Below, piece after piece: positions 885-7,781 of a stretch of 7,838 nucleotides of DNA. Every line of letters starts with the position of its first letter. The stretch's first letter is position 1. Origin of the DNA: a bacterium (GTDB lineage Bacteria > Orphanbacterota > Orphanbacteria > Orphanbacterales > Orphanbacteraceae). The notes beneath the pieces are model-generated. The model was not told where the DNA came from, made no database searches, and saw only the letters and a list, made by a program, of their open reading frames with translations. Location: positions 1 to 7,838 of the forward strand of contig JALGYY010000045.1 of NCBI GenBank assembly GCA_025782575.1, written 5' to 3'. A program made the position numbers and the translations under genes.

Positions 885-1027
885 ATAGGGGCGTCGCAAG
901 CTTTCTGTTCTAGCGGCGCGGAGAACGACATTGGGATGCATGCGGCCCCGGGAATTTTGACGGAAAGTGGCGATCATCGCGCCCATGCAGGAGACGACAT
1001 CTGGGGTTGAGGAACGGTCACCGCACC

Positions 1028-1060
1028 AGCCTTGTGAGGTGCCGCAAGGCTTGCTAGAAT
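1028..1060 (+). promoter_or_regulatory. Sigma70-type promoter with an overlapping inverted repeat, leaderless start
   Basis: A -35 box TTGTGA (1032-1037) is separated by 17 bases from a -10 box TAGAAT (1055-1060). The ATG of the ORF6N gene follows only six bases after the -10 box, so transcription would start at or next to the ATG and the message would be leaderless. No Shine-Dalgarno sequence is present, which fits. A perfect 7-base inverted repeat, AGCCTTG (1028-1034) and CAAGGCT (1045-1051), covers the -35 box and spacer and could be an operator. Box matches and repeat are seen directly; function is inferred. Confidence 0.5.
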
Positions 1061-1066
1061 TCCGAT

Positions 1067-1603
1067 ATGGTGAATAAACGACCTCTCATCCCTGCGGAAC
1101 AGATTCAGTCGAAGATTCTCCTCGTCCGGGGAGAGAAGGTCATGCTCGATTCTGACCTGGCGGTTCTCTATGGTGTAGAGACGAAAGTCCTCCTGCAAGC
1201 GGTTAAGCGAAACATCGATCGCTTTCCGTCCGACTTTATGTTTCAGCTTGATAATAAAGAGTTTGCGGCTTTGAGGTCACAAAATGTGACCTCAAAAACA
1301 GAGGGGAGAGGTGGACGTCGAACGCCGCCGTATGTCTTCAGTGAGCAGGGCGTGGCCATGCTCGCCACGGTCCTCTGAAGCAAACGGGCGATCCAGGTGA
1401 ACATCCAGATCATTCGAACCTTTGTGCAGCTCCGCCAGATCCTCTCCACACACAAAGACCTCGCTCGGAAGCTGTCCACGCTTGAGCGGAAGTACGACGA
1501 GCAGTTCAGGGTTGTTTTCGACGCGATTCGCGCACTGATGACGCCACCGGAACCAAAGGGAAAGCGGATCGGGTTCGCGACCGACGACGAGAAGTCACAA
1601 TAA
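1067..1603 (+). pseudogene. ORF6N-domain protein, split by an in-frame TGA
   Basis: The ORF6N family (DNA-binding domain, Pfam ORF6N) is common in phages and mobile elements. Residues 1-103 carry its signature in order: [70 protein letters not shown]. The frame then hits TGA at 1376-1378 and continues in the same frame as SKRAIQVNIQIIRTFVQLR plus a helical C-terminal tail to TAA 1601-1603. Intact relatives read VLRS.RA.QVN here, so the TGA replaces an Arg codon; CGA to TGA is one C-to-T change. Total length including the stop position, about 178 residues, is normal for the family. GTG 1397 could restart the second half, but it has no good ribosome binding site. The simplest reading is a recent nonsense mutation; readthrough or a sequencing error is less likely. 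The gene points convergently at the minus-strand pair downstream. Confidence 0.88.
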
Positions 1604-1619
1604 GATGCTCGATCAAAGG

Positions 1620-1654
1620 AAGAAGCCGCCTGGATCGGTACCGGGCGGCTTCTT
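1620..1654 (+). terminator. Hairpin terminator between convergent genes
   Basis: AAGAAGCCGCC (1620-1630) pairs perfectly with GGCGGCTTCTT (1644-1654). Three further pairs inside (TGG with CCG, one a G-U) leave a seven-base loop. The hairpin starts 16 bases after the ORF6N stop and ends 7 bases before the stop of the converging minus-strand gene, so it probably serves both directions. The U-tract is short and interrupted (CTTCTTGAGTCTCTT), so termination strength is uncertain. Confidence 0.75.
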
Positions 1655-1661
1655 GAGTCTC

Positions 1662-1946
1662 TTAGTAATCTAAGGGCAAAAGGGCGGTGACATGGGTTTC
1701 GTCGTCGATGAACCAGAGCCTTGAATCGGCCCCTGTCGGATTCTCGAACACCTGGAGGTAGTCAATTCCGTCATGATTCCAAGCCAGAGTCTGGAGGATG
1801 AGATAGACAGGAAGGATGAGTTTCACGCCGAAGGCATTGAGCGCTGCGGGAACAGCGACAAGCTGTCCCGTGAATCTCCATCGTGAATCCGGGTGGTCGA
1901 GAGGGATCTCCTGTGGCTTTCGCTTGAGCCGAATCCCGCCCTTCAT
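1662..1946 (-). CDS. Small conserved protein of the kind found next to radC on mobile elements
   Basis: The product has 94 residues, starting MKGGIRLKRKPQEIPLDHP and ending WFIDDETHVTALLPLDY. The pattern F-x-G-Q-L-V-A-x-P-A-A-L-N near residues 25-37 together with a terminal W-F-I-D-D-x-x-x-V-T-x-L-L-P-x-x-Y matches my memory of a widespread small plasmid-type family (relatives end like IWIITEADRS.TTILLP.EY) whose function is unknown. I choose the ATG at 1946 because it overlaps the stop of the upstream radC frame in TGATGA, a classic translational coupling arrangement. The longer open frame reaching back to 2156 gets its first 70 residues from the radC relic in the wrong frame and should not be annotated. 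The coding part looks intact, but its coupled upstream partner is dead, so expression is doubtful. The family link is from memory. Confidence 0.62.
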   Translation of the reverse strand: MKGGIRLKRKPQEIPLDHPDSRWRFTGQLVAVPAALNAFGVKLILPVYLILQTLAWNHDGIDYLQVFENPTGADSRLWFIDDETHVTALLPLDY

Positions 1947-2214
1947 CAGAGATACCCCGGTTCGCGAAATGACTCGTACCTCCCATTCCCGATGATCACA
2001 TGGTCGAGAATATCGATCCCGAGCAGTATTCCCGCTTCGATTAGCAGATTCCGCGGTTTCGATGACTTCCCTATTCGGTGCGGTTCTTGGCATCGAGGAG
2101 AAGAGCGAGGAACGGCTCCTGTTTCCGTGGGAGCCGGTGTCTTCGGGCGAACTCATATACTGATTGCGGGTCGGAGACGATCGTCCCTTCCGAGATTCTG
2201 CTGTCTAGGCACAT
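1946..2214 (-). pseudogene. radC: RadC/JAB-domain (JAMM) protein, internally deleted and frameshifted
   Basis: Three minus-strand frames together spell a RadC C-terminal domain. Frame A, from ATG 2214 (GGAGG six bases upstream, at 2225-2221), reads SDPQSVYEFARR then KQEPFLALLLDAKNRTE and stops at TAG 2073-2071. Frame B, about 2078-2049, reads PNREVIETAE, matching the segment after the metal-binding motif (PSRED-E-T). Frame C, 2044-1946, reads LIEAGILLGIDILDH, VIIGNGRYESFRE, PGYL and ends TGA. In intact RadC about 45 residues lie between DAKNR and P-x-R-E, including the HxHPSGDP zinc site; these are absent. One deletion plus one further small indel explains the layout. Length without an N-terminal HhH region suggests the short JAB-only form found on mobile elements. 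The product cannot be functional. Confidence 0.86.
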
Positions 2215-2539
2215 GAGAAACCTCCGTTTGGTCGTAGGTGGAAAGAGCGGACAATGGGCTCATTCTTCTTCCTACCCTGGACTCGAGTGGGATAGAAGGT
2301 GGGGGGAGGTCTTGGCTCCAGCACATCGGGTTCCGGGACGCCGGACGGGTAAGAGGTACGGTTGCCGCATGCTATGCGTTGAAGTATTACTGTGCAATTC
2401 CAATGGGTTTGAAATAGTTGTGAGCCGAACTCCGAGATTTCGCCTGTCAAACACAATCCGAGCCGGTTGTTTCCGGTGACATTGGACTATTCCATGTGGG
2501 AACAGCGATCTCGACTCTTCGACCGTCCATGGACCTTAG

Positions 2540-2749
2540 GATTGTAATGAGCCTCAGCGCAAAAACGAAGACGTCGAACTCGCGACATTCGAATGGCTCG
2601 ACTGGTCTTGCAAGCGACGACGATTCGAGCCGATCGAAACATTCCACCCATCGAGCATCGGAAGGGACTTAGTAAATTGGAACTAGAAGTCGCCGGATCC
2701 GTCGGCGGGAGTCAGCCAAGGAGGTCTTCCGAATACCCGGGGAGATTCA
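2540..2749 (+). mobile_element. 3' remnant of an IS3-family insertion sequence (transposase orfB end plus right end)
   Basis: The frame open from 2540 to TAG 2684-2686 contains NEDVELATFEWLDW (2564-2605) followed by KRRRFEPIETFHPSS. IS3-family integrase-type transposases end with a closely similar stretch (ED-VE-AT-EWVDW-N-RRLLEPIG--PPAE). Here the catalytic DDE portion is absent, the frame is closed by TAG at 2537-2539, and the Asn-His/Asn-Arg positions have drifted, so only a decayed C-terminal piece is left. About 60 bases downstream, 2720-2749 reads GAGGTCTTCCGAATACCCGG then GGAGATTCA, resembling the right inverted repeat of these elements (GGAG-CTCCG-AAACCCGGGGCGGTTCA). No matching left end (TGAACCGCCCCGGG type) is visible. 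Identification rests on remembered family consensus. Confidence 0.6.
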
Positions 2750-2975
2750 CTCATGGCAAGGGTGCTATTACCCCATTAGGCCACACAAGCGATCAGAGTT
2801 GCACATAAAACATTCACCCCCCCCGGCAATGGCCTCAAGCGAGGCGAGGGGAAGCGGAATCCAGTACAGCTTCAGGAACTGAGCGGATCCGACCCGAGTT
2901 CCGTAGAAATAGAAAATGGCCTAATCTCCGGGTATAGTCTGGTTGCTCTTGGTCAGATTCGATTGCGACGGATCA

Positions 2976-3104
2976 ATGGATATCAGCATTTGCCCTCGGT
3001 TATCCGAAAGGCTAAGAAATCGGCTTAAAGGATTCGGAGTTCAAGAAATGAGACCGGAGAGAGTGCCAGAGAAATTTCTACGAGAACAGGGACACATCCA
3101 CTAA
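2976..3104 (+). CDS. Doubtful 42-residue small ORF
   Basis: ATG 2976 opens a frame beginning MDISICPRLSERLRNRLKG and ending PEKFLREQGHIH before TAA 3102-3104. A TATAGT box lies at 2933-2938, with a weak TAGAAA 17 bases before it, about 40 bases upstream of the ATG. There is no Shine-Dalgarno sequence. The composition (charged, helical) is more protein-like than the neighbouring frames, but I recognise no family. It may be a chance frame or the end of a decayed gene. Confidence 0.15.
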   Translation: MDISICPRLSERLRNRLKGFGVQEMRPERVPEKFLREQGHIH

Positions 3105-3144
3105 CCCGGCCGCGCCTGTTTGTCATCTAATTTCTCCCTGGGCC

Positions 3145-3178
3145 TTGACAAGTATCCGCCTCGACCGGAGTGTATAGT
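3145..3178 (+). promoter_or_regulatory. Candidate promoter of the cohesin-like/caspase-like operon
   Basis: A perfect -35 box TTGACA (3145-3150) and a good -10 box TATAGT (3173-3178, preceded by TG) lie upstream of the preferred TTG start at 3231. The spacer is 22 bases, longer than the 16-18 usual for sigma70, so either the boxes are used by a variant factor, only one is real, or expression is weak. A start near 3185 would leave a leader of about 46 bases. If the promoter is real, it also argues against the longer open frame that begins at 3120. Confidence 0.35.
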
Positions 3179-3230
3179 CCATAGGCTAATCGTTTCCCTC
3201 GTTTTTCTATACGTCCGAAGGGAGATCGTC

Positions 3231-4475
3231 TTGAGATTTCAAACTCGTATTCTGGTTTTTTCTTGTTTCGTGCTCATGGGCTGGCCAAACATCGGGCTCG
3301 CGGGAGTAGTAGCAGTCCTTGATGTGGACGGGGACCCGACCAACGGTCCCGATACGGTATTTGTTGAACCGCTCGAGAGGGTCGACGTGGGGGTCTGGCT
3401 CGTTGGCGATGAAGAGGTTTCCGGATTCTCCGTGGCAGTAGAAGAGCCGACCGGAAACTTGGCATGGATAAGAACCCGTCCGAATGGGAGCTATTTTCTG
3501 CCGGAGGATTGGACCCCCCGACATCCCCGCTATGAATCCGAGAGAGCCGTCGTTGAGGCAACGGATTTCACCGGCAGCACACCTGTTGGGCTACCCCGGA
3601 GAGTGGCGCGACTTGCTTACACTGCGACTGCATCCAGCGGGAGCTATCCACTTCGAATTGACCCACAACAGTCGGGATGGTTCGGAGATGGGGCTTCCGG
3701 GGAATTTGGTGGGCTGACTGCTTTAGTGGTTCACGTAGAGGGAACATTACCTGCTGTGTTTCCCGCAGCGATTTGGCCGGAGACGACGACTCGAGTAATT
3801 GAGTCGAGAGTAATTGACGCTGGCGAGGTCTATCTCTATGGAAATACGATCAGCCGCGCTGGAGGCTATCTTGTGGAGTTCGGCGAGGACTTTGTTCAGC
3901 TGAATGGAGTCCCGATCATGCCGCCCATCGACCGTCAATGGACACCCAAGGTCGTGCCAGGATCGAATTCGGCACAGTATATGGGGCTAATGAGTGACGC
4001 TCATGCGCGATACCTCGACGCGCTTGCCGGGAGCGAAGATCTGCGCGCGGTTAAGGAGGAGATACTAGAGACGCTAGCGTCAGCGCAGACCGTGATCGAC
4101 TCGGCAAGATTATCGGACGGCGGCCGAGTCTTCGTGAAGATGGTTGGTCAAGACTTTTGGGCAGAAGTCTCCTTTGCAATGCACCCCACGTCCGCGACGG
4201 CGGAAAGCCGGGAACGGGGGCTTAGAAGAGAATTTGAGTTCATTTGTAATCGATTGACGATCGGGGGGGTTATTATCGTCTCAACCGGGCGCGGGATGAT
4301 CTCCTTCTCTCCCAAGAGTGGCGCCGGGGTCTTGCCGAGCATTCGAGCAGAGATTGAGAGAGCAAGGCGCTCGACATATAGCGAGCTTCAACGGCGCGTT
4401 TGGGATAGCAAAAAAATGGATCATAGCGTTGCCTATGACTTCAAGAACCCGATTCGCCTTAGCGGAGGTAGATAA
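3231..4475 (+). CDS. Secreted protein with an N-terminal cohesin-like beta-sandwich
   Basis: I start this gene at TTG 3231, giving 414 residues: AAGGGAG (3218-3224) sits six bases upstream, and the product then opens with a signal peptide (MRFQTR, a hydrophobic core, likely cleavage after GLA at residue 24). The frame stays open to 3120, but that would bury the signal peptide. Residues about 27-170 resemble a cohesin or Ig-like secreted domain: VVAVLDVDGDPTNGPDTV, then VDVGVWLVGDEEVSGFSVAV, and later VARLAYTATASSGSYPLRI and LTALVVHVEG. The second half (200-414) has GGYLVEFGEDFVQLNGVPI and a helix-rich region (255-290) and matches nothing I know. No enzyme motif is visible. It is the first gene of an operon with the caspase-like gene, three bases apart. 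A role as partner, scaffold or substrate of that protein is inferred only from this coupling. Confidence 0.85.
   Translation: MRFQTRILVFSCFVLMGWPNIGLAGVVAVLDVDGDPTNGPDTVFVEPLERVDVGVWLVGDEEVSGFSVAVEEPTGNLAWIRTRPNGSYFLPEDWTPRHPRYESERAVVEATDFTGSTPVGLPRRVARLAYTATASSGSYPLRIDPQQSGWFGDGASGEFGGLTALVVHVEGTLPAVFPAAIWPETTTRVIESRVIDAGEVYLYGNTISRAGGYLVEFGEDFVQLNGVPIMPPIDRQWTPKVVPGSNSAQYMGLMSDAHARYLDALAGSEDLRAVKEEILETLASAQTVIDSARLSDGGRVFVKMVGQDFWAEVSFAMHPTSATAESRERGLRREFEFICNRLTIGGVIIVSTGRGMISFSPKSGAGVLPSIRAEIERARRSTYSELQRRVWDSKKMDHSVAYDFKNPIRLSGGR
3792..3821 (+). repeat. In-frame 15-base tandem duplication
   Basis: Two adjacent 15-base units, CGAGTAATTGAGTCG and AGAGTAATTGACGCT, share GAGTAATTGA and encode RVIES followed by RVIDA (residues 188-197 of the cohesin-like protein). 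It looks like a small slippage duplication that has since diverged. Confidence 0.5.
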
Positions 4476-4478
4476 GCC

Positions 4479-7400
4479 ATGTGGAATCGGGCCGGTTTTG
4501 CGATTGCTTGTCTCGCTTGTCTCGCGCCATCAGGCCTCGACGCAGCATCGAACAAAACTCCGGGAGCCAACGACCTCTACTACTTTCACAGCGCAGGGAA
4601 CATCGGGTCGGGAATTGGCCCCCTGATCGCGATCCACGACGATCTTGGCTACGGAGATCCAACAGACAACCGAATCAACGAAAGCAGCTTTCCGACGAAC
4701 TCCCCCGGCAAGGATTATCTAGGAAAACTGGTGACGGCACTTGGAAGCGGTGACTATGGAATCATCTACATCGTTGCGCACGGAAGTTCAACGGAACTTG
4801 TGGTCGAGGAATACACGATTCGAGCCAAGCGAGATACGGCATTTATTCGCTACAACACTCCGGGGACCCTGGACTATATCCCCGGCGTGTCGGCCATAGA
4901 CCTGATTAGCGGAATCTATGTGATCGCCATTGACCCCGTTTCATTGGGGCAGCACTTTCAAGACAACACAACCATTGTTCATTTTCTCTCATGTTGGAGC
5001 AATTCGTGGGCGGGCGATGTGGCCGACGGGGCGCAATGTATCATGTCATATGAAGATACGACGGTCACCGCTCTCGGCCGCGACGCAGACGCGACCCTTT
5101 TGTACTCGCGAATGCGGGGATCGGGAGGAAATCCCTTTCTCTCGGTTCAGGCGGCCAAGGATTTGGGCGGCCTCTCGCCGACCTTCCACATTGACGGGGA
5201 TTTGAATACTGTCCTTGTGCCTAGCTTGGTCGACTTTGGACCCGCACCGGGGACACTTGTAGAGAAGAATGTTCCGGGCGGTCTTCTCTTCAACACAGAG
5301 ATGGACACCTCAACGGATCCCATTGCCGCAGGTTTGAAGATAATTAGCGGATCATTTGAAGATGTAGCAAAACTTATCGGGGCTTCGTGGGTGAGCTCAG
5401 ACTCCATCGCATGGGAAATGGTTCCAGTGGACACGGGCCCTTTCGTTGTAGAGGTTCCCGCCGCGTTCAAGAGCCTGGGGGCCGGGATTGCTGTGGACTT
5501 CGATGGCTACGCGCCCTATGACAGTGACGTGCTCTCTATTAACTATGAAGCCCGTGGAGACGAGTCGTCCGCCGCCTACCTTACTTCTTTCGCGGTCTCA
5601 GGCGAGGGTGTCACCTGGCGAACGTGGCATGAGGACGGCACCAAAGGATTTTTCCTCGAAGGATCGTTGGGCGGTGGACAGGAAGAGTGGGAACGTATTT
5701 CTCCGACAGTTCCCGCAACGGGCGCGGGGAGCGAGTATTCGTTGTCTCTGCCGGGAGATTACGAATTCGTTCGCCTGGTGGAGGTGGAGGAGCGGCACGG
5801 AACTCGTTCTGATAGGATCTTGGAGATATATGAAACAAATAGCCTCCCGTCTGCACGCCCCCCCACGCTGTCTTCTCGCTGGGCGGAGTACGCACCCCGC
5901 AAATACCACATTCTGGGCGTTGAGCGAGATCGACTTGCTATTGAAGAATACGTGGCGGGGCGTGCCGCGCTCGGCCTTGAGACCACGTTTGAGATTATTC
6001 CCAGCATAGACAAGACTGCGGTCGCTCGCGTGCGGGAGCGCGGGAAGACTGGTCCGCTGGTGTCCATTTGGCAGAGCCCTCCTCCGAACGTCGGCGGGCC
6101 AACTCAGCCACAGAAGACAAACACCTGGTATCAAACACTGATCCTGGCCCCAGCCGCCTTAAACGGCAGCTCGGCGATTGATGCATATGCCGTAGAGCTA
6201 ACAGCCCACGGCCGCGGTCTTGTGGCGGTAAGTCTGTTTGACTCCACAACCGCGACCACCGATACCCTAGTAGCCTTGATAGAGGCGTATTCCCCTGAAC
6301 CACACTATGTCGTCATTTTTGGCCGAGGTGCGTTTGACGGCATTGGGGCGACGACGGTTCCGTTCTTTTCCCTGCCAAGCCCGCAGCCCGTGTTTGTTCC
6401 GCAGAGCGGAAACATACTTTCTTTCGGGGCCTATGAAGGGACAAGCACATCTGTATCGAGAATGGTGGGGTTTGTCCCGGCGAACAACCCCGGCGAGGTG
6501 TTCCTCTACTTAGACAAGGCACACGACCAACAATATAACTCTCCCGATCTAGGAATTGACATGCGAGAGTTGGGTTGGTGGGTTGGTGATCATAACAATT
6601 GGGGCAATTCTGGTCCGTACGCCAAAGCGCTCATGGATCTCGTTCGAGACACGACACGCGCCGCTTGGCAGTTCCACGAGCTTACCGCTAGCGAAATAGG
6701 GTACGGCCAAACCGCCCGAACAGATAGCGCCAACGCACACCTCCAGGGTGGCCGCTCGTTGGTTGCCTTGTTTGGTACGGCATCGCTCTATTGCAACCCG
6801 GCCGATTGGCTGAGTACCTATGAGCCCAACCTCTACACCAATCTGGATTCTACCGGTCGATATACCACTTTTCTTTCGATGTCGTGTCATGCGAACGCTT
6901 GGGATCACGAAGGTCAAACCTGCATCGGAAGTCCCCCCCGTGACCATGTTATGACTGAGATGCTAAAGATCCCACTTGGAGGAGCGATCAATTCCATCGG
7001 GCCCACGAGGGGATGCTATCAACACTACTACTACGCGTATCTTGTCGAGTTCATGAAGCAGTACGACAATTGTCGAAGCGTGTGGACGAGCGGGCAACCT
7101 ACCATTGGGTGGCTCCACAAGGAGGCGAAGAACGCGCTCTTGGCAAGGTATCCGGGCAACCTGGATGTGGAGGCACTTTGCAGCATGTTGGCGCTCATGG
7201 GCGACCCCACGCGGATCTTGTACGGCCCCATGGACAACGAAGTATACCAGTATGTCGGGGTTGAGCTAGGAGACGATGCTCCGAGGGTTGACGCAAGCGT
7301 TTCTGCTGCGAGGCCGAATCCGTTCAACCCCCGAACGTCCATCGTTGTGTCAGCTCCAGCCGGTGGGCGCGTACTTGTTGAAATCTACGACGTGCGTGGC

Positions 7401-7565
7401 CGGCGGGTGAGGACACTTGCCGATGAGACGGTGGCACCCGGAGATCATGAAATCGCGTGGACGGGAAAAAACGATGACGGCCGCGATATGCAGAGCGGGG
7501 TCTACTTCTACCGGGTCGAGGTAGATGGCGATGTGTCCACAGGTAAGGTCGTCCTTGTAAGATAG
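4479..7565 (+). CDS. Secreted double caspase-fold protein (C25 gingipain-like) with FlgD-Ig C-terminal domain
   Basis: The product has 1028 residues and a signal peptide (MWNRAGFAIACLACLAPSGL, cleavage near residue 22). Region 1 (about 30-235) has two strand-plus-dyad motifs typical of clan CD peptidases: GIIYIVAHGSS with His101 and TTIVHFLSCWSNS with Cys172. Residues 240-460 are beta-rich linker domains. Region 2 (about 475-915) follows the peptidase C25 plan: YHILGVERDRLAIEEYVAGR, PHYVVIFGRGAF, GRSLVALFGTASL, FLSMSCHANAWD with Cys803, and the closing LALMGDPTRILYG. At the C25 active-site GHGS the sequence is GTAS (766-769), so the usual His is missing. The last 90 residues are a FlgD-Ig/T9SS-like module: ARPNPFNPRTS, VEIYDVRGRRVRTL, SGVYFYRVEV, KVVLVR. 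ATG 4479 has GGAGG (4464-4468) inside the end of the previous gene, which implies translational coupling. Likely a secreted or surface protease, with region 1 active and region 2 possibly structural; substrate unknown. Confidence 0.9.
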   Translation: MWNRAGFAIACLACLAPSGLDAASNKTPGANDLYYFHSAGNIGSGIGPLIAIHDDLGYGDPTDNRINESSFPTNSPGKDYLGKLVTALGSGDYGIIYIVAHGSSTELVVEEYTIRAKRDTAFIRYNTPGTLDYIPGVSAIDLISGIYVIAIDPVSLGQHFQDNTTIVHFLSCWSNSWAGDVADGAQCIMSYEDTTVTALGRDADATLLYSRMRGSGGNPFLSVQAAKDLGGLSPTFHIDGDLNTVLVPSLVDFGPAPGTLVEKNVPGGLLFNTEMDTSTDPIAAGLKIISGSFEDVAKLIGASWVSSDSIAWEMVPVDTGPFVVEVPAAFKSLGAGIAVDFDGYAPYDSDVLSINYEARGDESSAAYLTSFAVSGEGVTWRTWHEDGTKGFFLEGSLGGGQEEWERISPTVPATGAGSEYSLSLPGDYEFVRLVEVEERHGTRSDRILEIYETNSLPSARPPTLSSRWAEYAPRKYHILGVERDRLAIEEYVAGRAALGLETTFEIIPSIDKTAVARVRERGKTGPLVSIWQSPPPNVGGPTQPQKTNTWYQTLILAPAALNGSSAIDAYAVELTAHGRGLVAVSLFDSTTATTDTLVALIEAYSPEPHYVVIFGRGAFDGIGATTVPFFSLPSPQPVFVPQSGNILSFGAYEGTSTSVSRMVGFVPANNPGEVFLYLDKAHDQQYNSPDLGIDMRELGWWVGDHNNWGNSGPYAKALMDLVRDTTRAAWQFHELTASEIGYGQTARTDSANAHLQGGRSLVALFGTASLYCNPADWLSTYEPNLYTNLDSTGRYTTFLSMSCHANAWDHEGQTCIGSPPRDHVMTEMLKIPLGGAINSIGPTRGCYQHYYYAYLVEFMKQYDNCRSVWTSGQPTIGWLHKEAKNALLARYPGNLDVEALCSMLALMGDPTRILYGPMDNEVYQYVGVELGDDAPRVDASVSAARPNPFNPRTSIVVSAPAGGRVLVEIYDVRGRRVRTLADETVAPGDHEIAWTGKNDDGRDMQSGVYFYRVEVDGDVSTGKVVLVR

Positions 7566-7594
7566 ACATCCAAAGAGGCCTCCGGGTTATTCCT

Positions 7595-7616
7595 CGTCTG
7601 GAAAACGCCTCAGACG
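7595..7616 (+). terminator. Weak hairpin after the caspase-like gene
   Basis: CGTCTG (7595-7600) pairs with CAGACG (7611-7616) around a ten-base loop, about 30 bases after the stop. There is no U-tract, so this is at best a weak or Rho-assisted end; it may be chance. Confidence 0.22.
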
Positions 7617-7644
7617 GGTGGAATATGTGCAAACGCGTAGCGCC

Positions 7645-7677
7645 TTGACACTGCATCATAACGGACGTTATGGTGCA
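7645..7677 (+). promoter_or_regulatory. Promoter with near-perfect dyad operator
   Basis: A perfect -35 box TTGACA (7645-7650) is followed 18 bases later by TATGGT (7669-7674), a moderate -10. Between and over them lies the dyad TGCATCATAACG (7652-7663), GA, CGTTATGGTGCA (7666-7677), matching at 11 of 12 positions, with a perfect core CATAACG-GA-CGTTATG. A repressor dimer bound here would block the spacer and -10 box, suggesting an autoregulated gene. Any transcript would be nearly leaderless for the ATG at 7685. The boxes and symmetry are seen; the regulatory role is inferred. Confidence 0.5.
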
Positions 7678-7684
7678 TATTGTT

Positions 7685-7768
7685 ATGGCGAAGAAGAAAC
7701 CCCTGAAAACCGACGATCTGGTCGTGTATGTCGTCAGCCAAAGTGGGACAGTTTCTCCTGAGAGCTAA
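7685..7768 (+). CDS. Tiny ORF, probably a truncated gene start
   Basis: ATG 7685 opens 27 residues, MAKKKPLKTDDLVVYVVSQ followed by SGTVSPES, ending at TAA 7766-7768. An in-frame ATG at 7670 would lie inside the -10/dyad and is less likely. The first 18 residues look like a genuine basic N-terminus placed directly after a regulated promoter, but from about 7737 the DNA turns into repeats resembling an insertion-sequence end. I therefore suspect a host gene cut off after about 18 codons. I do not recognise the family. An overlapping frame from ATG 7728 stays open to the right edge (AKVGQFLLRAKGHPLLDQ and on) and is an alternative reading. Confidence 0.3.
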   Translation: MAKKKPLKTDDLVVYVVSQSGTVSPES

Positions 7769-7774
7769 AGGACA
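7737..7774 (+). repeat. Direct repeats resembling IS21-family terminal repeats
   Basis: GCCAAAGTGGGACA (7737-7750) and GCTAAAGGACA (7764-7774) are two copies of one motif, the second lacking three bases; each is preceded by AG or GAG. On the minus strand they read TGTCC(CAC)TTTGGCT and TGTCCTTTAGC. IS21-family elements carry several such repeats beginning TGT at their ends. No istA or istB gene is seen in the window, so this would be a solitary end or a remnant. Confidence 0.4.
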
Positions 7775-7781
7775 CCCTCTC

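Follow-up and report, generated by a model that had tools for sequence, protein, structure and literature searches.

A C25 domain that has always lost its histidine and never its cysteine, paired with a clan-CD-like region in a predicted T9SS-secreted protein family

What can a peptidase domain of family C25 be kept for once its catalytic histidine has gone, and what does it do behind another region that carries a His/Cys pair of its own? The question is raised by one gene in a stretch of 7838 bases (the window), which is the entire contig C23 of the draft genome G000, from a phylum represented by seven genomes in the collection analyzed. Known representatives of family C25 are the gingipains and PorU, the sortase in the type IX secretion system (T9SS). 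The initial annotation of this gene described two clan CD-like regions in a single protein, the C25-like one without its catalytic histidine, and proposed either an active domain paired with a pseudoenzyme or a shifted dyad using the histidine next to the cysteine. All the residues on which it relied (H101, C172, GTAS at 766–769, C803, and H804) are found where it placed them.

The gene extends from 4479 to 7565 on the forward strand, stop included, behind a GGAGG Shine–Dalgarno motif at 4464–4468, and encodes 1028 amino acids; a full-length orthologue is found in Candidatus Eisenbacteria (BLASTP E 5e-92). The span first assigned to it, 4479–7226, is too short, since the open frame continues until the stop at 7565, with a FlgD_ig/T9SS-type tail as its last part. 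All the following segments lie on the forward strand. The hydrophobic N-terminus ending in AA (residues 1–23, 4479–4547), read from the sequence by eye, is a probable signal peptide. Region 1, the clan-CD-like His/Cys domain (residues 30–250, 4566–5228), is supported by the matches of profiles A2 and A9 to other proteins and by a weak C25 match. It is followed by linker modules (residues 251–470, 5229–5888), Ig-like and then fibronectin-like as judged from their pattern, which could be aligned across family members and which gave no Pfam match. Region 2, a complete C25 domain without the catalytic histidine (residues 473–915, 5895–7223), was recognized with Pfam PF01364 and hhalign. The C-terminal FlgD_ig/T9SS type A sorting tail (residues 943–1028, 7305–7562) is matched by PF13860 at 36.7 bits and by TIGR04183, the T9SS type A sorting domain, at 30.4 bits for a cut-off of 23 bits. 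When genome G000 was searched with the window protein, 150 matches were obtained, nearly all of them to the sorting tail, of which there are about 150 copies. SprA, the T9SS translocon, scores above cut-off in each of the 12 genomes tested; in G000, which is one of them, the TIGR04189 matches sum to 525 bits within one frame of 2037 amino acids. The two-region protein would be a T9SS substrate that reaches the cell surface or leaves the cell.

Relatives were collected with region-1 profiles and whole-protein profiles. The profile A3 search across the phylum of G277 was redone with a query devoid of the sorting tail, because the tail had swamped the matches of the first one. Eleven homologues were found in related uncultured bacteria, which makes twelve region-2 proteins with the window protein. 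Eight of them have both regions, namely the window protein, L056 (identical to L057, from Candidatus Eisenbacteria isolate RS_13_32), L131, L132, L089, L090, L147, and L045, the N-terminus of which is cut by a contig end. Region 2 occurs without region 1 in L133, L134, and L135, and L010 is cut. L133 (2098–4578) has a different N-terminal domain in place of region 1, with YNCHAYAW...NHSAI, which recalls a cysteine hydrolase of the CHAP/NlpC type. A scan of IMG/VR for relatives of the window protein retrieved none, and none of the PADLOC defence models matched.

By profile comparison, region 2 is a bona fide and whole C25 (gingipain) domain. Pfam PF01364 covers residues 600–911 (E 1.9e-15, 57.5 bits for a cut-off of 23), and hhalign aligns the 11-member family profile, across 342 columns, with one built from 25 other C25 domains found in the same phylum (99.8%, E 2.8e-28). 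The position of the catalytic histidine, located both by HMM alignment and by a joint MAFFT alignment with these 25 domains, is occupied by Thr767 (codon 6777–6779). In the joint alignment, this column reads T, T, A, N, A, T, L, V, S, S, S, and V across the twelve members; the HMM alignment concurs wherever it reaches the column, except for L133, which is shifted by two residues and has an arginine there. The histidine is present in 21 of the 25 other domains, the remaining four having N, R, N, and W. The nucleophile position behaves quite differently, Cys803 (6885–6887) being invariant in the twelve members, as compared with 24 of 25 in the other set. Of the two residues expected of an active C25 peptidase, the nucleophile (C803) is thus in place and the histidine of the GHG motif (T767) is not. 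The spacing of 36 residues between T767 and C803 equals that of the full C25 paralogue L013 of the same genome, in agreement with the C25-like spacing initially put forward. Only four residues are invariant in region 2: S769 (6783–6785), C803, G908, and P910. Since all twelve members lack the histidine and all twelve retain the cysteine, the loss reflects neither chance nor a local error.

The histidine being always lost and the cysteine always kept, the “dead” half appears as a maintained part of the protein, and not as a decaying one. Amino-acid identities between members are indeed higher in region 2 than in region 1: 69 vs. 28% for L089/L090, 47 vs. 29% for L131/L089, and 32 vs. 26% for the window protein and L056. 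Judged from these alignments, region 2 is not decaying and outdoes region 1 in conservation wherever pairs can be compared. AlphaFold2, run on region 2 with a two-sequence input, gave a pLDDT of 32.4. Other C25 proteins of the phylum have also lost the catalytic histidine, namely L030 (GNGG), L031 (GRGG, with the cysteine also replaced by serine), L036, and L040, so that pseudo-C25 domains are not rare there. These are scattered single cases in a canonical background, whereas the window family has lost the histidine throughout and the cysteine never.

Region 1 shows the conserved order of a clan CD dyad, histidine and then cysteine. His101 (4779–4781) is conserved in 11 of 11 sequences and Cys172 (4992–4994) in 10 of 12. 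As in clan CD generally (caspases C14, clostripain C11, legumain C13, CPD C80; PMC4357240), each of the two residues follows a run of hydrophobic residues such as a strand would show; unlike in these families, 71 residues separate the histidine from the cysteine, and no family profile matches region 1. Comparison of region 1 with Pfam and PDB gave nothing usable, apart from one CHAT match at E 0.063. The region-1 profile yields a weak match with C25 that pairs His101 with the GHG histidine, with a score of 17.9, where 100 column shuffles reached 17.0 at most. A caspase fold is weakly supported, because AlphaFold2 with a two-sequence input returned an unusable model (pLDDT 28.6), and region 1 is therefore labeled clan-CD-like rather than clan CD. 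Its profile also matches the lipoproteins L046 and L055, which both have the histidine and the cysteine. Two further region-1 lipoproteins, divergently oriented at locus L054 of contig C22 in G000 (2480–5569 on the reverse strand and 5521–7779 on the forward strand), keep the histidine and have asparagine and serine, respectively, in place of the cysteine; they are apparent pseudoenzymes of region 1, so that this region may not always be a peptidase. In the window protein, it is probably an active clan-CD-like peptidase, as far as its conserved residues allow a prediction.

A second gene accompanies the main one. It probably starts at a TTG codon at 3231, with a signal peptide, and extends to 4475 on the forward strand (the mechanical ORF being 3120–4475), 3 nt before the main gene. 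Homologues of this partner lie directly upstream of L056, L089, L090, L131 (partial; seen by eye), L132, and L147. It is present at all seven loci that combine region 1 with region 2 and have upstream DNA available, the window included. Upstream of the members devoid of region 1 (L133, L134, and L135), other genes were seen by eye, and the partner at none of the three. The C-terminal domain of the partner can be matched by hhalign to the segment ahead of region 1 in the lipoproteins, with a score of 27.3 as compared with a maximum of 15.8 in 100 shuffles, over 46 columns only and with an HH probability of 20%. Clan CD zymogens normally have pro-domains, and an N-terminal prodomain is listed for gingipain (PMC4357240). 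This profile match suggests that the partner could be a pro-domain supplied in trans. The rest of the window contains an ORF6N-domain gene (1067–1378) interrupted by an in-frame TGA (1376–1378); the same frame is open to about 1600 and continues past the stop like the remainder of the protein (SKRAIQVNIQIIRTFVQLRQ...), so this is probably a broken gene. Between it and the partner gene, about 1.7 kb (1400–3100) has no evident gene. Searches for tRNA and Rfam matches in the window gave none.

Another feature of the family came from two homologues of different genera: each has a single TGA in frame, at a codon position common to both, and homology extends to either side of it. In L089 (gene 1502–4339, reverse strand, genome G140), the codon is at 2768–2770, and in L090 (gene 921–3839, reverse strand, genome G390), at 2196–2198; the context is TGA GAC CTG TGG in both. 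L131 has a cysteine in this column. Both genomes have SelB and a tRNA-Sec gene above cut-off. Identity between the two proteins rises from 35% ahead of the UGA to 69% past it, which implies that translation continues beyond this codon and that the part encoded there is under selection. Hairpins of 8 bp are found 3' of the UGA in both genes, in the same register, from base 16–17 counted from the U of UGA; they share one compensating pair, and the chance of finding both is about 0.006 by simple shuffles. In L090, another fold has a lower energy than the hairpin, the thermodynamic z-scores are weak, and a search for SECIS elements in L089 and L090 with Rfam gave chance-level matches only. On this pattern, L089 and L090 probably represent a new selenoprotein, with UGA read as selenocysteine within the C25 half. 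They share with bacterial selenoproteins (PMC9312934, PMC12013277) the UGA/Cys pairing, SelB, tRNA-Sec, and a candidate hairpin 3' of the UGA. These two papers on bacterial selenoprotein families mention no C25, gingipain, or caspase-like selenoprotein, and no paper mentioning a C25 selenoprotein was found in the open-access literature searched. The window protein has no UGA, and the Cys/Sec column is absent from it and from most members.

Several explanations can be weighed against these observations. An artifact or a decaying gene could be suspected, as the window makes up an entire 7.8-kb contig in a draft assembly. The orthologue L056/L057 shows G-T there as well, ten further homologues also lack the histidine, and the frame is open across 1028 codons, which leaves almost no chance for this reading; a sequencing error in particular is ruled out by the homologues equally devoid of histidine. 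It is very improbable that region 2 is still an active peptidase in which another base, His804 or a residue elsewhere, has replaced the lost histidine. The cysteine and the fold are indeed kept, as this would require, but the residue after the cysteine reads H, Q, G, G, D, D, G, G, D, G, G, and A in the twelve members, so that His804 (6888–6890) is proper to the window protein, and no other region-2 column has a histidine in more than 5 of 12. A dyad shifted to His804 was rejected on these grounds, and a relocated one is unlikely. Of the two proposals of the initial annotation, a conserved His/Cys region beside a C25-like pseudoenzyme is thus retained as a family-wide arrangement, and the dyad using His804 is abandoned.

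Region 1 could also lie outside clan CD, its HG and C motifs being incidental and the whole an adhesin-like surface protein devoid of catalysis. The missing Pfam and PDB matches, the uninformative AlphaFold model, and the two homologues that lack the cysteine would fit such a view; it is nevertheless rather unlikely, as His101 and Cys172 are retained to the extent given above in sequences only 16–28% identical to the window protein, and the profile pairing of His101 with the C25 histidine scores above 100 of 100 shuffles. A serious rival, if still an improbable one, is that region 2 has been re-purposed as a thiol/selenol domain, in which Cys803, together with the Cys/Sec in the N-terminal half of the C25 domain in some members, would perform redox or acyl-transfer chemistry without histidine. 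An invariant cysteine in the absence of histidine would be expected from it, as would the TGA found at one codon in two genera with a cysteine in the same column of L131, the selenocysteine machinery of both genomes, and the higher identity past the UGA; the window protein and most members, which have no Cys/Sec column, speak against it.

The explanation preferred here, and considered fairly likely, is that of a T9SS-secreted protein combining a probably active clan-CD-like region 1 with a maintained C25 pseudopeptidase, along with a co-transcribed partner. Region 1 would act as a cysteine peptidase through His101 and Cys172, and the co-translated partner would keep it latent or aid its folding, like a pro-domain acting in trans. 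As the general-base histidine is gone family-wide while the cysteine and the fold are strongly constrained, region 2 would most likely be a module that binds a substrate or a partner, and possibly a covalent thiol trap. A broader proposal can be made only tentatively: the C25 domain would have been converted family-wide to a histidine-independent thiol domain at the cell surface, thiol/selenol in some genera, accompanied by a clan-CD-like peptidase in cis and a pro-domain protein in trans.

The gingipains RgpA, RgpB, and Kgp and the PorU sortases (PF01364) share with this family the whole C25 domain, the nucleophile cysteine, the GDP motif, and the T9SS-type tail; in contrast, the window family never has the catalytic histidine, carries a second His/Cys region in front, and comes with a dedicated partner gene upstream. 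A C25 lineage in which the base is always lost and the nucleophile never, and in which this domain is, in one branch, better conserved than any other part of the protein, offers a clean natural test of the reason for keeping a clan CD pseudopeptidase. The partner gene points to a zymogen system divided between two genes. Should the UGA be read as selenocysteine, the selenoproteome would gain a family of protease-related surface proteins, and the branch concerned would be the first C25 selenoprotein found, as far as the literature search reached.
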